From positions 6,634,001-6,698,000 of the forward strand of contig NZ_JBCJKP010000001.1 in the NCBI RefSeq assembly GCF_039503195.1: a stretch of DNA of 64,000 bases, written 5' to 3'. A program made the translations under genes and the position numbers. The DNA is from Streptomyces mirabilis (GTDB taxonomy: Bacteria; Actinomycetota; Actinomycetes; Streptomycetales; Streptomycetaceae). The notes beneath the pieces were generated by a model. The model had not been told where the DNA came from. It searched no databases and saw only the letters and a program-made list of their open reading frames with translations. Shown here in pieces: positions 37,718 through 43,922 of the stretch (position 1 is its first letter; each line of letters begins with the position of its first letter).

Positions 37718-37793
37718 TGCAACGTGACTGGTTGATCTCGTAGCGCGACGGAACGCGACCCGCACGGGAAAGTTACGACCGTTCACCCCTTTT

Positions 37794-37827
37794 GGTGGCG
37801 CGATGGACAACCGTCCGTCGCGCCACC
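37794..37827 (+). terminator. Terminator of the ABC transporter operon
   Basis: GGTGGCGCGA (37794-37803) pairs with TCGCGCCACC (37818-37827), and GGAC pairs with GTCC inside, around an AACC loop. Confidence 0.72.
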
Positions 37828-37906: not shown

Positions 37907-39649
37907 GTGCGCATCGGACTGCTTACGGAGGGTGGCTATCCGTATGTGAGCGGTGACGCCAGACTCTGGTGCGACCGGCTCGTGCGCGGGCTCGGGCAGC
38001 ACGAGTTCGACATCTACGCGCTCAGTCGCAGCGAGCGGCAGGAGGACGAGGGCTGGATCCAGCTGCCGCCGCAGGTCAGCCGGGTGCGGACGGCTCCGCT
38101 GTGGACGGCCGAGGACGACGGCGTGGTACACGGGCGACGGGCGCGCCGGCGGTTCGCCGAGTGCTTCGGGGAGTTGGCGGCGGCGGTGTGTACCGCGCCC
38201 GCGGTCCTCGACGGATCGGAGGTCTCTGGCGGTGTGACGGCGTCGGAGGCCTCTCGCGGAGTGGTGGCGGACCGTTTCGGCAGTGCGCTGTACGGCCTCG
38301 CGGAACTGGCCCGCGACGAGGGCGGGCTGGTCGGGGCGCTGCGCTCCGAGGGGGCCGTGCGCGCCCTGGAGCGCGCCTGCCGTGCGCCCGGCGCATTGCG
38401 CGCCGCGCGTACCGCGCGTGTGCCCGACCTGCTGTGCGTCGCCGCTCACGTCGAGCGCGCGCTGCGCCCCCTCTCGCTGGACTGGTACGAGGACGACGGG
38501 CTCGGCTCGGTCGACCTCTGCCACGCGGCGGCCGGCGGCGAGGCCGCTCTGCCCGGCCTGCTCGCCCTGCACTTCGCCGGGGTGCCCCTGCTGGTGACGG
38601 AGTACGGCGTGCAGCTGCGGGCGCACTACCTCGCCTCCTCCGCCGCCGAGGAGTCCCCCGCGGTACGGGCGCTGCTCGCGGCCTTCCACGGCGCGCTGGC
38701 CGCCGAGGTCTACCGCCGGGCCGCGCTCATCACGCCCGGCAACACCCACGCGCGCCGCTGGCAGGAGCGCTGCGGCGCCGACCGCGCCAAACTGCGCACC
38801 GTCTACCCCGGCATGGAGGCCGCCCGCTTCGCGGAGGTGGGCGAGCGGGCCGACGGCTCCGGGTGCGTGGCCCCGGACACCCTGGTCTGGGTCGGCCGCA
38901 TCGAACCGGCCAAGGACCTGATCTCACTGCTGCACTCCTTCGCCGAGGTCCGCAAGGAGGCACCGAAGACGCGGCTGCGGATCGTCGGCGCGCCCGCCGA
39001 CGGGCCGGAGGGCGCGCCGTACCTGGCCCACTGCAAGGCGCTGGCCGCTCAACTCTTCCCCGACGAGGCGGAGGGCGTGCACGCGGTCGGCGACAACCCG
39101 GTGTCTTTCGAGGAGATCGGCGGCCCGGAGGTCCCGAGCCTCGCGGAGGCGTACGCGTCCGGCGCCGTGGTCGTCCTCTCCAGCGTCGTCGAAGGCTTCC
39201 CGATCAGCCTGGTCGAGGCCATGTTCTGCGGCCGTGCCACCGTGTCCACGGACGTCGGCGCGGTCGTCGAAGTCATCGGCGGTACGGGGCTGGTGGTGCC
39301 GCCGCGCAATCCGCGGGCGCTCGCCGAGGCGTGCGTAGCACTGCTGCGCGACCCCGAACGGCGTGCGCGCCTGGGCGCGGCGGCCCGCGCGCGAGCCCTC
39401 GAACTCTTCACGGTCGAGCAGAACATCACGGCATTTCACGGCATTTACCTGGAGATCGTCTCGCGTGCGCCGGTCCGGCGGCTCGTCGTGGACGACGCGG
39501 GGGATCCCCTGCCGTTCGGCGTGCCGGCCGAGGCCCACGTACCCGGTCGCTGGACCGAGGCCCGCCTCATGGCCATGGGACGCCCGCGCTGGGCGGCGGG
39601 GGCGCCGGTGCGTGCCACAGTTCCGCTGCCCGCGGGGGAGGGCGCGTGA
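37907..39649 (+). CDS. GT4 glycosyltransferase with DUF3492 domain (PelF-like)
   Basis: This 580-residue cytoplasmic enzyme opens MRIGLLTEGGYPYVSGDARL and WCDRLVRGL, characteristic of DUF3492/PelF glycosyltransferases. The C-terminal GT4 half has VWVGRIEPAKDLISLLHSF, then SVVEGFPISLVEAM with the EX7E pair and GAVVEVIGGTGLVVPP. PelF in Pseudomonas polymerises N-acetylgalactosamine from UDP-GalNAc. The N-terminal part carries a streptomycete-type insert near residues 80-200. The GTG at 37907 is nine bases from a GGGGG. It heads a run of closely linked genes to 42680, and its stop overlaps the next start by one base (TGATG). Confidence 0.85.
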   Translation: MRIGLLTEGGYPYVSGDARLWCDRLVRGLGQHEFDIYALSRSERQEDEGWIQLPPQVSRVRTAPLWTAEDDGVVHGRRARRRFAECFGELAAAVCTAPAVLDGSEVSGGVTASEASRGVVADRFGSALYGLAELARDEGGLVGALRSEGAVRALERACRAPGALRAARTARVPDLLCVAAHVERALRPLSLDWYEDDGLGSVDLCHAAAGGEAALPGLLALHFAGVPLLVTEYGVQLRAHYLASSAAEESPAVRALLAAFHGALAAEVYRRAALITPGNTHARRWQERCGADRAKLRTVYPGMEAARFAEVGERADGSGCVAPDTLVWVGRIEPAKDLISLLHSFAEVRKEAPKTRLRIVGAPADGPEGAPYLAHCKALAAQLFPDEAEGVHAVGDNPVSFEEIGGPEVPSLAEAYASGAVVVLSSVVEGFPISLVEAMFCGRATVSTDVGAVVEVIGGTGLVVPPRNPRALAEACVALLRDPERRARLGAAARARALELFTVEQNITAFHGIYLEIVSRAPVRRLVVDDAGDPLPFGVPAEAHVPGRWTEARLMAMGRPRWAAGAPVRATVPLPAGEGA

Positions 39650-40827
39650 TGAGCGACCTCGTACGGGACGGCTCGGGTGCTGCGCGCGGCGACGCCGGGG
39701 GCGATCCGGGGAGTGCCTCGGGGGGCGCGCGCACGTCCCTCGGCGGTGGTCGCCGCGGTGCCGTGGACCCCGTGAAGGCGCTGATGCACCGGCATCGTGA
39801 ACTCTGCGAGCGTGCCGTCGACCCCCTGGAGATCGCGGCGGGCCTGGAGGCACACGGGGTGACCGACCGCACGGCCGCACGGTTCCGGCACCGGGACGTG
39901 TTCTCGCTGGCCGAGGAGATGTACGCGCGCGCGGCCCGCGACTCGGACCCGGCGCCGCGGCCCGCGGCCCCCGAACACCCCGGCGCGCGCGCCGACTGGG
40001 CCGTGCTCTCCCTGCTACCGGGCGCGCTGTGCGCGGCGACCGTGGCCGGGCTGCGGCTCACCGAAGGGCAGCCGCGCCTCGCGGTCGCCGCCGGCGGCAC
40101 CCTCGCGGTGACGCTCGGCCTGCGTGCCGCGCTGCGCCGAGGTCCCCTCGGCACCACGCACCGCACGACGAGCGGCACCCTTGCCTGGACCTGCTGGCTG
40201 ATCGCGTACGCCCTGCTCGGCGACGGACTGCTGAGCGTCGGCATCGAAGGCGGCCCCGACGGCCCGTGGCCCCCCGCCACCGCACCCGTGCTGGCCCTCG
40301 CCCTGGCGTGCGCCCCCGCGGTCTGGTGCGCCCACCTCTTCACTGCGGGCGCCCGCCGCAAACTGACCACGAGCCGAGGACTGGAGGAGTTCGCCGTCTC
40401 CGTGCGGCCCCTGCTCCTGGGAGTCTTCGCCCTCTTCCTCTGCGCCCTGGGCGCGCTGCTCGCACTGTGCCGGGCGGCGCCGAGCGACGGCGCCTACAAC
40501 GGGCCCGGCGCGTACGTCGGAGCGGGCGCCCTCGGCGCGCTGCTCCTGCTCGCGCGCCTGCTCACGACGCGCGGCTTCACCCACGCCCCGGCCGTCGTCC
40601 TCGGCGCCGCGGGCGCGGCCGAAGTGACCGCCCTCACCACGGTCTTCGCGGCCCGCCTGCCCGGCTGCTCGTTCGTCGCCACCCCCGTCGAGACCGTCGC
40701 CGACGCCTGGGGTCCGGGTGCCGTCCCGGCCCTGGTGTGCGGCGCGGCGGCGCTCGTCCTCCTGATTCACGCGACCCGCACCCTGACCCGGGCCTCGGCC
40801 CACGCCACACCGGGCGGGACGCCATGA
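39649..40827 (+). CDS. Polytopic membrane protein of the PelF-like operon
   Basis: This 392-residue protein has a cytoplasmic N-terminal region with ALMHRHRELCERAVDPLEIA and FRHRDVFSLAEEMYAR. About eight transmembrane helices follow (from ADWAVLSLLPGALCAATVAG to GAAALVLLIHATRTL). I do not recognise a family. In Pel loci the gene next to pelF is pelG, a larger membrane exporter; this could be a shortened or unrelated functional counterpart. It overlaps the glycosyltransferase by one base and the next small ORF by four, so it is expressed with them. Confidence 0.75.
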   Translation: MSDLVRDGSGAARGDAGGDPGSASGGARTSLGGGRRGAVDPVKALMHRHRELCERAVDPLEIAAGLEAHGVTDRTAARFRHRDVFSLAEEMYARAARDSDPAPRPAAPEHPGARADWAVLSLLPGALCAATVAGLRLTEGQPRLAVAAGGTLAVTLGLRAALRRGPLGTTHRTTSGTLAWTCWLIAYALLGDGLLSVGIEGGPDGPWPPATAPVLALALACAPAVWCAHLFTAGARRKLTTSRGLEEFAVSVRPLLLGVFALFLCALGALLALCRAAPSDGAYNGPGAYVGAGALGALLLLARLLTTRGFTHAPAVVLGAAGAAEVTALTTVFAARLPGCSFVATPVETVADAWGPGAVPALVCGAAALVLLIHATRTLTRASAHATPGGTP

Positions 40828-40943
40828 GCCGCGACCGGCGCCCGAGGGTCCAGCCCTCGTGCCGGGCGCACCCTCCCGCGGGGCCGACACCGCGGGCGCT
40901 CCGTCCGACACACGGCACCACCCCGAAGGAGAACGCCAGATGA
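40824..40943 (+). CDS. Small ORF, 39 codons, in a chain of ATGA overlaps
   Basis: The ATG overlaps the membrane-protein stop (ATGA at 40824-40827), and GGGCGGGA lies just upstream. The peptide MSRDRRPRVQPSCRAHPPAG... is basic and proline-rich without a known motif. Its stop overlaps the next small ORF (ATGA at 40940-40943). It may be a real peptide or only a relay that keeps ribosomes coupled to the epimerase. Confidence 0.4.
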   Translation: MSRDRRPRVQPSCRAHPPAGPTPRALRPTHGTTPKENAR

Positions 40944-40987
40944 TCACCTCCCGAACCGGAGAATCCGCCCCGGGAGCCGCCCGATGA
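40940..40987 (+). CDS. Small ORF, 15 codons, with strong ribosome binding site
   Basis: The ATG has AAGGAG (40925-40930 approx.) at ideal spacing, the best site in this operon. The peptide is MITSRTGESAPGAAR, and its stop overlaps the epimerase ATG (40984-40987). It probably loads ribosomes for the epimerase, which has no site of its own. Confidence 0.45.
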   Translation: MITSRTGESAPGAAR

Positions 40988-41943
40988 GGGTCCTGCTGAT
41001 CGGAGCCAACGGATACCTCGGCCGTTTCGTCGCCGACAGACTGCTCGCCGATCCGGCCGTGCAGCTCACCGCCCTCGGCCGGGGCGACGACGCCGACGTA
41101 CGGTTCGACCTCGCCTCGGGCAGCCCCGGCGCCCTCACCCGCTTCCTGGACGCGGTGCACCCCGGGGTCGTCATCAACTGCGCGGGCGCCACCCGCGGCG
41201 GAGCCCGCGAACTGACCCGGCACAACACCGTCGCCGTCGCCACCGTCTGCGAGGCCCTGCGCCGCAGCGGCTGCGGTGCCCGCCTGGTGCAGATCGGCTG
41301 CGGCGCCGAGTACGGGCCCAGCCAGCCCGGCTCCTCCACGGCCGAGGACGCCGTACCGCGCCCCGGCGGCCCGTACGGCGTCAGCAAGCTCGCCGCCACC
41401 GAACTGGTCCTCGGTTCCGGCCTCGACGCCGTCGTCCTGCGCGTCTTCTCGCCCGCGGGCCCCGGCACCCCCGCCGGATCCCCGCTCGGCCGCCTCGCCG
41501 AGGCCCTGCGCCGCGCCATGCAGTCCGGCGACGGCGAACTCAAACTCGGCGGACTCGGCGTCCAGCGCGACTTCATCGACGTCCGCGATGTCGCCCGCGC
41601 CGTGCACGCCGCCTCGCTCTCCGCCGCGCAGGGCGTCATCAACATCGGCTCGGGCCGCGCCGTCCGCCTGCGCGACGCCGCCGCCGTCCTCGCCCGCGTG
41701 GCCGGCTACGGAGGCACGCTGCACGAACTCGACGGCCCACCCGGACCGATGAGGTCGGCCATCGGCCATCCCCGCACCGAAGCGGATCACGGGGCGCCGG
41801 TCGCGTACCCCTACCCGGACGGCTGCGGCAGCTGGCAGCAGGCCGATGTGCGCACCGCACGCGACCGGCTCGGCTGGCGGCCCCGGATCAACCTCGAGGA
41901 ATCCCTCGCCGATATCTGGATGGAGGCGGCATGCCGCATCTGA
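40984..41943 (+). CDS. NAD-dependent sugar epimerase/dehydratase (extended SDR)
   Basis: This 319-residue protein has the Rossmann motif LLIGANGYLGRF (residues 4-15), NCAGATRGG, an active-site YGVSK (near residue 133) and RDFIDVRDVARAV near 198, all in the order of extended SDR nucleotide-sugar epimerases. In a Pel-like setting it would supply UDP-GalNAc from UDP-GlcNAc, as PelX does in some bacteria; this is inference. Its start lies in the ATGA overlap with a 15-codon ORF, and its end overlaps the next gene by 13 bases. Confidence 0.82.
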   Translation: MRVLLIGANGYLGRFVADRLLADPAVQLTALGRGDDADVRFDLASGSPGALTRFLDAVHPGVVINCAGATRGGARELTRHNTVAVATVCEALRRSGCGARLVQIGCGAEYGPSQPGSSTAEDAVPRPGGPYGVSKLAATELVLGSGLDAVVLRVFSPAGPGTPAGSPLGRLAEALRRAMQSGDGELKLGGLGVQRDFIDVRDVARAVHAASLSAAQGVINIGSGRAVRLRDAAAVLARVAGYGGTLHELDGPPGPMRSAIGHPRTEADHGAPVAYPYPDGCGSWQQADVRTARDRLGWRPRINLEESLADIWMEAACRI

Positions 41944-42680
41944 CCAGCGCCGCGACGGACATCGCGAGCACGGACTTAAGGGTCGGCCTCGGCGTCCCCG
42001 GCTATGCGCACCCCCTCGTCGCTCCGGCCGAGTGGGGCGAACTCACCCGCCCCGGGACCCCCGTGCACTGGGCCGTCCTGAACGTGGCCAACGGTCCCGG
42101 CATCCGCCCCGACCCGCACTGCCTGGAGGCCGCCGGCCGACTCCGCAACGCGGGTGTGCGCGTCCTGGGGCACCTGGACGTGACGTACGGCGCACGCGCC
42201 TTCGCCGAGGTGATCTCCGACGCACACCGGTATCTCGACTGGTACCGGGTCGGTGGCTTCCTCCTGCACCGCTGCCCCACCGAGCGCGCCGCGCTCCCCG
42301 AGGTCCGCCGGGCGGCCACCGCGCTGCGCACGCTCCTCGACGACGCGCACCTCGTCTTCGGTCACGGCACCCACCCCTACCCCGGCTATGCCGAAAGCGC
42401 CGACCAACTGGTGACCTTCTCCGGCACCTGGAGCGATTACCGCTGGTCGCAGGTGGCCGAGTGGACCGCCGACTATCCGCCCGAGCGCTTCTGCCACTTC
42501 GTGCACGGGGTACCGCGCGGTCATCTCGACGAAGCGCTGCGCATCGCCCGCTGGCAGGGCGCCGCGACGATCTACTTCACCGACCGCACGGATCACGGTG
42601 GACGGGCCGACCCCTGGGAGACGATGCCCGGCTACTGGGACGAGATCGTCTCGCGGATCGGAACGGGTGTCTCGGAATGA
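41931..42680 (+). CDS. Spherulin-4-type protein (spherulation-specific family 4)
   Basis: This 249-residue protein matches spherulation-specific family 4, a TIM-barrel family. It has VGLGVPGYAHPL, WAVLNVANGPG, GVRVLGHLDVTYGARAF, FLLHRCP and FGHGTHPYPGYAE in the family order. The family includes Sph3 and the hydrolase part of PelA, enzymes that cut galactosamine-containing polymers. No signal peptide is visible, so it may act inside the cell or be exported by another route, which is odd for a glycan hydrolase. It ends the operon 63 bases before moeZ. Confidence 0.82.
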   Translation: MPHLTSAATDIASTDLRVGLGVPGYAHPLVAPAEWGELTRPGTPVHWAVLNVANGPGIRPDPHCLEAAGRLRNAGVRVLGHLDVTYGARAFAEVISDAHRYLDWYRVGGFLLHRCPTERAALPEVRRAATALRTLLDDAHLVFGHGTHPYPGYAESADQLVTFSGTWSDYRWSQVAEWTADYPPERFCHFVHGVPRGHLDEALRIARWQGAATIYFTDRTDHGGRADPWETMPGYWDEIVSRIGTGVSE

Positions 42681-42743
42681 AGAAGGGCGTGGCAGTGTTA
42701 CGGGGAGAACAACTGTAGTGATTGACCGACCAACGGAGTCCCC

Positions 42744-43922
42744 GTGTCGCTGCCACCCCTGGTTGAGCCAGCTGCTGAGCTCACCGTAGACGAGGTCCGC
42801 AGGTACTCCCGCCACCTGATCATCCCCGATGTGGGCATGGACGGGCAGAAGCGGCTGAAGAACGCCAAGGTGCTGTGTGTGGGCGCTGGCGGCCTCGGAT
42901 CGCCGGCGCTGATGTACCTGGCCGCCGCGGGCGTGGGCACGCTCGGCATCGTGGAGTTCGACGAGGTCGACGAGTCGAACCTGCAGCGCCAGATCATCCA
43001 CAGTCAGGCGGACATCGGCCGCTCCAAGGCCGTGTCGGCCCGTGACTCCGTGCTGGGCATCAACCCGTACGTGAACGTGGTCCTTCACGAAGAGCGGCTC
43101 GAGGCCGAGAACGTGATGGACATCTTCAGCCAGTACGACCTGATCGTCGACGGCACGGACAACTTCGCGACCCGCTACCTGGTCAACGACGCGTGCGTCC
43201 TGCTCAACAAGCCGTACGTGTGGGGTTCGATCTACCGCTTCGACGGCCAGGCCTCCGTCTTCTGGTCCGAGCACGGTCCCTGCTACCGCTGCCTCTACCC
43301 GGAGCCCCCGCCGCCGGGCATGGTCCCCTCCTGCGCCGAGGGCGGCGTGCTGGGCGTGCTGTGCGCGTCCATCGGCTCCATCCAGGTCAACGAAGCGATC
43401 AAGCTTCTCGCGGGCATCGGTGAGCCGCTCGTCGGCCGCCTGATGATCTACGACGCCCTCGAGATGCAGTACCGCCAGGTCAAGGTCCGCAAGGACCCGG
43501 ACTGCGCGGTCTGCGGCGAGAACCCGACCGTCACCGAGCTCATCGACTACGAGGCCTTCTGCGGTGTCGTGTCCGAGGAGGCCCAGGAGGCGGCGGCCGG
43601 CTCGACGATCACTCCCAAGCAGCTCAAGGAGTGGATCGACGACGGCGAGAACATCGAGATCATCGACGTCCGCGAGATCAACGAGTACGAGATCGTCTCG
43701 ATCCCCGGCGCCAAGCTGATCCCGAAGAACGAGTTCCTCATGGGCACCGCCCTGGAGACCCTTCCGCAGGACAAGAAGATCGTCCTGCACTGCAAGACGG
43801 GCGTCCGCAGTGCGGAGGTGCTCGCCGTGCTGAAGTCCGCGGGCTTCTCGGACGCGGTGCACGTCGGCGGCGGTGTGATCGGCTGGGTCCATCAGATCGA
43901 GCCGGAGAAGCCGGTGTACTAG
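42744..43922 (+). CDS. moeZ: Adenylyltransferase/sulfurtransferase MoeZ
   Basis: This 392-residue protein has an E1-like adenylation domain with VGAGGLGSP (46-54) and R/N segment ESNLQRQIIH, two zinc pairs (C180/C183 and C254/C257), and a C-terminal rhodanese domain with the persulfide Cys C350 in HCKTGVR. MoeZ adenylates and thiolates ubiquitin-like sulfur carriers for molybdopterin, cysteine and thiosulfated products. It corresponds to mycobacterial Rv3206c (moeB1/moeZ). The GTG at 42744 has GGAG just upstream. A terminator follows at 43956. Confidence 0.93.
   Translation: MSLPPLVEPAAELTVDEVRRYSRHLIIPDVGMDGQKRLKNAKVLCVGAGGLGSPALMYLAAAGVGTLGIVEFDEVDESNLQRQIIHSQADIGRSKAVSARDSVLGINPYVNVVLHEERLEAENVMDIFSQYDLIVDGTDNFATRYLVNDACVLLNKPYVWGSIYRFDGQASVFWSEHGPCYRCLYPEPPPPGMVPSCAEGGVLGVLCASIGSIQVNEAIKLLAGIGEPLVGRLMIYDALEMQYRQVKVRKDPDCAVCGENPTVTELIDYEAFCGVVSEEAQEAAAGSTITPKQLKEWIDDGENIEIIDVREINEYEIVSIPGAKLIPKNEFLMGTALETLPQDKKIVLHCKTGVRSAEVLAVLKSAGFSDAVHVGGGVIGWVHQIEPEKPVY

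Follow-up and report, generated by a model that had tools for sequence, protein, structure and literature searches.

A cassette of four genes at 37907..42680 in the 64,000-nucleotide stretch of Streptomyces mirabilis DNA analysed here (the window) most likely descends from a long Agd3-type operon through the loss of the deacetylase, the first short-chain dehydrogenase/reductase (SDR), the nucleotidyltransferase and GH114. The description "repurposed and constrained" is supported for what is left. Catalysis appears, from the residues, to have been largely lost; since the genes have nevertheless been kept by evolution, a different job is probable. The reading that we favour, to which we give an even chance, is that the cassette is a repurposed, largely non-catalytic Agd3-type derivative whose products may form a membrane-attached cytoplasmic pseudo-enzyme complex, with a sensing or scaffolding role in hyphae that are differentiating.

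The cassette and its conservation

The genes encode a DUF3492/GT4 glycosyltransferase homologous to PelF (GT, 37907..39649, 580 aa), a membrane protein (MEM, best read as the frame 39649..40827, 392 aa), an SDR or nucleotide-sugar epimerase homologue (SDR, 40984..41943, 319 aa) and a spherulin-4, GH135-like protein (SPH, 41931..42680, 249 aa). All four had been called in an earlier reading made from the sequence alone (the sequence-only reading), and all are real genes on the + strand. They had been described as linked by overlaps or tiny gaps, which holds for two junctions (one base, TGATG, shared by GT and MEM; 13 bases shared by SDR and SPH) but not for MEM and SDR, which lie 156 bases apart. 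The gene moeZ (ThiF-rhodanese, 42744..43922, + strand) follows outside the cassette proper and serves as a syntenic anchor. Below, class B denotes cassettes with GT, MEM and SDR (mostly also SPH) beside moeZ, like that of the window, and class A denotes the other DUF3492 loci, Agd3-type operons of which 80 named loci were counted.

Among 30 Streptomyces loci fetched because they had a spherulin or GT match, GT, MEM, SDR and moeZ stand in order in all 30, and the spherulin barrel is present in 27; the gene set is thus not a chance assembly. Spherulin matches were found in 228/245 genomes of the order and in 220/227 of the window's genus, the latter count including other spherulin copies and four genomes matched only by a short tail (G055, G088, G178, G209). 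A second search, with the SDR, used 26 selected genomes (11 Streptomyces, three of other genera of the family, 12 of other families), and found the SDR in 11/11 Streptomyces without or nearly without spherulin, in 3/3 other genera of the family, and, as a weak match, in only 2/12 genomes of other families. In the loci fetched from nine of these 11 Streptomyces and from the three family genera, the SDR adjoins moeZ in 12/12. Altogether, matches to GT, MEM and SDR, whose frame intactness was checked in part, are present in 39/39 fetched class B Streptomyces loci. The cassette is most likely specific to Streptomycetaceae and vertically inherited, which forms part of the favoured reading.

The ratio of nonsynonymous to synonymous substitution rates (dN/dS; Nei-Gojobori, window against five close relatives) is 0.17–0.24 for GT, 0.26–0.32 for MEM, 0.05–0.09 for SDR and 0.19–0.34 for SPH, compared with 0.04–0.11 for moeZ. 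All four cassette genes are therefore under purifying selection, with ratios well under 1, and SDR is the slowest-evolving of them.

Origin from Agd3-type operons

Class A loci have the order deacetylase–GT–MATE-fold exporter–[SDR–nucleotidyltransferase–SDR]–spherulin, sometimes with GH114, and fit the bacterial Agd3 operons of Bamford et al. 2020 (PMC7229062). Elsewhere, machinery of this kind seems to produce a sticky polymer of amino sugars. Their first gene encodes a protein of ~750 aa with Agd3 deacetylase and CBM87 signals, which are clear in L098 (43.5 and 53.4 bits) and under cut-off in the three others tested; an Agd3-like match was found in 76/80 loci. The membrane protein has 414–568 aa (75 called), the nucleotidyltransferase is present in 34/80 loci, usually flanked by two SDRs, and GH114 is added in two annotated actinobacterial plasmid copies. 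Streptomyces, Actinomadura, Actinoplanes and others have such Agd3-type operons (L102–L181), in which the spherulin-4 retains both catalytic acids, Asp and Glu.

The window cassette shares descent and the order GT–MEM–SDR–spherulin with these operons and is without the deacetylase, nucleotidyltransferase, first SDR and GH114. A search of the window genome for an Agd3-like deacetylase, positive in 5 of 7 genomes, gave no match there, and no GH114 was found in the cluster, the genome's only match lying ~3.1 Mb off at C1:9824073. Descent from the long operon rests on three comparisons. In a quick maximum-likelihood tree (92 of 132 GT rows), the 31 class B GTs form one clade with support 100, nested within class A, on a stem of 1.35 changes per column; because of long branches, its exact sister is unsure. 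In the SDR tree (47 rows), class B is one clade (100/100) inside the second SDR of the long class A operons, the exact sister being supported only at 85/68. The MEM profile matches class A MEM profiles at 99.5% (E 1.6e-22). The suggestion that the locus is a reduced, divergent version of something larger is thus borne out, the fuller class A operons having the lost genes.

Family membership and replaced residues

The window GT matches DUF3492 (PF11997) at 99 bits, together with GT4 domains, and is the single DUF3492 match in the genome. It had been called PelF-like; the family assignment stands, but the protein falls just under the NCBIfam PelF cut-off (97.5 bits against 100) and outside the PelF clade, as five PelF proteins with PelG neighbours branch outside the class A/B group. 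Two class A GTs exceed the same cut-off, at 149 and 173 bits. The glycine-rich loop and the N-domain histidine are described as GT4 active-site features in PMC9883506 and PMC4506291. Both are fixed in the fuller operons; in class B the loop is replaced in 31/31 rows and the histidine in 28/31, the window GT having GDAR for GGVS and Tyr for His. In a set of 40 class B rows (the 31 and 9 more), the donor-site Arg is missing in 12. Cassette homologues without spherulin adjoin moeZ in L217 (genus g2) and L219 (genus g4); their GTs have an altered E-x7-E and have lost most of the GT4 motifs checked, and their SDR retains the catalytic Ser. L100, L101 and L190 (Paenarthrobacter plasmid pTC2) form a third group of DUF3492-type GTs, which is very divergent; on pTC2 the GT adjoins a putative membrane protein and galE.

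The SDR, correctly read as a nucleotide-sugar epimerase homologue, matches PF01370 at 125.5 bits and retains GxxGxxG and YxxxK. Its catalytic Ser, which we take to be the Ser/Thr member of the catalytic triad, is Cys in the window and in 30/30 class B loci and is retained in 36/36 class A rows. Since GT and SDR both have replacements at catalytic positions, the proposed making of a polymer is doubtful.

SPH matches PF12138 at 82.2 bits (cut-off 30.2), which agrees with its identification as a spherulin-4 protein, and is homologous to Sph3 (GH135; PDB 5c5g, 5d6t) with E 8.5e-7; it is the only spherulin-4 match in the genome. The catalytic Asp and Glu of spherulin-4 hydrolases are named in passages of PMC10485009 and PMC12054363. 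Sph3 Asp166, Glu167 and Glu222 correspond to His, Arg and Ser in the window protein, so the Sph3/PelA acid pair is gone (His, Ser) and the idea that a hydrolase trims the polymer is unsupported; the sequence-only reading had itself named a lack of these acidic residues as a finding that would refute it. The catalytic Glu, fixed in the fuller operons, is replaced in 148/148 class B proteins. Hydropathy bears out the stated absence of a signal peptide on SPH. Four spherulin relatives from fuller operons have no clear signal peptide either, an odd feature in an enzyme that would hydrolyse a polymer after its export. Relatives of SPH are annotated as "spherulation-specific family 4 protein" and some as "phage tail protein".

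MEM, with an N-terminal cytosolic helical domain that is conserved, gave no match at E<=1 in either Pfam or NCBIfam. It seems to be a shortened homologue of a 12-helix MATE/MOP-fold exporter, with ~8 predicted transmembrane helices remaining. It had been placed as the PelG counterpart, which is not upheld: hhalign profile comparison with five PelG proteins gave 0.03% (class A MEM, 0.2%). The absence of a clear pelG, which the sequence-only reading itself noted, extends to the whole genome, where no PelG match passed the cut-off (best 19.9 bits against 29).

Promoter-like site, leader and expression

A sigmaR-type promoter-like site, GGAAT-N18-GTT (42674..42699, + strand), which we take to be the sigmaR consensus, lies 5' of moeZ and overlaps the SPH stop codon, so that the 3' end of SPH is constrained. 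GGAAT or GGAAC with a spacer of 17–19 occurs upstream of moeZ in 43/43 loci, compared with 202/20000 random windows.

Six Streptomyces loci without the spherulin barrel (L087, L220, L222, L223, L224 and L226) carry short open frames of 62, 60, 41, 42, 41 and 93 aa, in which the original start and a C-terminal tail (LPGYWD..VSRIG.GVSE or close) are retained. A selected microprotein was considered and rejected, silent sites being conserved as well (summed pS 0.17, pN 0.09 for silent and amino-acid-changing sites). The DNA of the tail includes the GGAAT of the moeZ site; this and the conserved silent sites make promoter retention the ordinary explanation, and the short frames left after barrel loss probably reflect it. 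When the genus was searched with the 40-aa frame, 295/295 genomes matched at a permissive threshold of E<=1; the 30 loci inspected from this search were all full length, with no further barrel-less case among them.

Upstream, a leader element, GAAAGTYACG-N5-TTCACCCCTT followed by a hairpin (37768..37827, + strand), lies ~80 bases 5' of the GT start and occurs once in the genome. The hairpin (37794–37827) has a 15-bp stem and an AACC loop. The motif pattern is present in 29/31 upstream regions, L087 and L090 having close variants. In a 28-row alignment, 96% of the stem cells are paired; covariation scores 0.152, compared with 0.117 for shuffled alignments (matched in 1/500) and no more than 0.074 with slid partners. 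However, shuffles do as well on the number of pairs changed on both sides (three; 231 of 500) and of further pair types (11; 244 of 500), which leaves moderate support for a selected RNA structure. No Rfam family matched the element; it might serve as a regulatory RNA or an operator, or it might terminate the upstream ABC gene.

In S. coelicolor, SCO5174–SCO5177 should be GT, MEM, SDR and SPH, because SCO5178 is moeB, a sulfurylase (PMC4340878). SCO5174, SCO5175 and SCO5177 are reported in PMC3610822 to be up by 2.2–3.8 log2 units in multinucleated mycelium, and mutants in SCO5174, called a putative glycosyl-transferase, showed reduced actinorhodin (PMC6585502).

Relation to known systems

Bacterial Agd3 (CE18) operons, which others have likened to galactosaminogalactan (GAG) clusters, are noted in PMC7229062 to encode a GT in the cytoplasm and a membrane protein with several spans; those of some Actinobacteria also have a spherulin-4. 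The window has homologues of their GT, membrane protein, SDR and spherulin, arranged as they are there, and differs in the four missing genes, the replaced catalytic residues and the apparently shortened exporter homologue. The activities of the Aspergillus GAG cluster uge3-gtb3-agd3-ega3-sph3 (PMC4817252) match those of the class A relatives. Fungal Sph3 is described as an active, membrane-bound hydrolase (PMC12054363), whereas the window SPH has neither signal nor acids. With the Gram-positive pelDEADAFG operon (Whitfield et al. 2020, PMC7112168) the window shares a DUF3492/PelF-type GT and a nearby epimerase, and SPH is comparable to the PelAH-like hydrolase near the Pel operon of bacilli (PMC7112168). 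However, neither pelADA nor pelG is in the cassette, and its GT lies outside the PelF proteins tested. No pelD or pelE candidate was seen inside the cassette, the genome not having been searched for these families. The Pel-like label thus captures kinship to amino-sugar genes of the Pel/GAG type, but the locus is not Pel, and it probably does not operate like its GAG-type ancestor either.

Interpretation and alternatives

In the favoured reading, an ancestral actinobacterial GAG-like exopolysaccharide operon would have lost its deacetylase, nucleotidyltransferase, first SDR and GH114, with GT, the exporter homologue, the second SDR and the spherulin staying in ancestral order beside moeZ. The remaining parts would have lost features normally required to make, export and cut a polymer; the C-terminal half of GT may still bind nucleotide sugars, and the SDR may still bind NAD(P). 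We infer that GT, MEM, SDR and SPH could assemble as a membrane-attached cytoplasmic complex, and we propose that in differentiating hyphae it would serve for sensing or as a scaffold. A further version, less likely than not, is that across the Streptomycetaceae a whole exopolysaccharide synthase operon became a set of interacting pseudo-enzymes. In this version the dead GT and SDR would detect nucleotide sugars and NAD(P) at the membrane and adjust the envelope or antibiotic programmes that differentiating hyphae run, the spherulin barrel being an optional subunit. Several observations weigh against the favoured reading. The window GT retains E-x7-E (E429, E437), R331 and K336 of the donor site; across class B, E383 is retained in 31/31 rows and E375 in 29/31, a degree of conservation that a pure pseudo-enzyme would not require. 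The histidine persists in 3/31 rows (4/40 in the enlarged set), and the active-site roles of the loop and histidine are assigned from motif position. A Ser-to-Cys change may not kill an SDR with Tyr and Lys intact, and the catalytic Asp of SPH is retained in 115/148 class B proteins. The count of ~8 helices in MEM comes from a poor model (pLDDT 62.6), hydropathy and alignment. The SCO numbers rest on synteny with moeB rather than on sequence, and SCO5176 is absent from the induction table of PMC3610822.

The retained E-x7-E, Arg and Lys make an active GT of changed specificity the main rival, a serious but minority possibility: it would use an altered donor or acceptor to build a surface glycan that is short or of another kind, with the SDR supplying the nucleotide sugar, MEM anchoring or moving the product and the dead spherulin only binding the chain. 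The intact GxxGxxG and YxxxK of the slowly evolving SDR and the listing of SCO5174 among cell-envelope genes fit this rival; the universal loss of the glycine loop, the near-universal loss of the His, the Arg missing from 12/40 rows, the altered E-x7-E beside moeZ in L217 and L219 and an exporter homologue short of ~four helices do not. That the cassette is a functionless, decaying relic kept only for the moeZ promoter at its 3' end is improbable. The spherulin gene is indeed lost or shrunken in 11 Streptomyces genomes (picked for having no good match), and the promoter-like site is invariably present, but the other three genes match in every class B Streptomyces locus fetched, dN/dS is low, the leader hairpin is conserved and the synteny-placed S. 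coelicolor genes are strongly induced in development. More improbable still is the original proposal, in which a reduced Pel-like operon would both synthesise and trim a polymer of the galactosamine type: the DUF3492 and spherulin-4 families are present, and kinship extends to Agd3-type operons with an active-looking spherulin and GH114, but the genome has no PelG over cut-off and no Agd3-like gene, the spherulin is without catalytic acids and the GT is outside the PelF group.

Judged by family labels, the cassette resembles a Pel-type or spherulin hydrolase locus. The favoured reading also sets it apart from the true streptomycete Agd3-type operons, which are the place to seek a galactosamine polymer. 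If the favoured reading is true, the cassette would be a genus-wide, developmentally induced case in which a complete polysaccharide machine has lost its chemistry and its parts are still selected, and the evolution of a pseudo-enzyme complex would be testable in a model organism, through SCO5174–SCO5177 of S. coelicolor.

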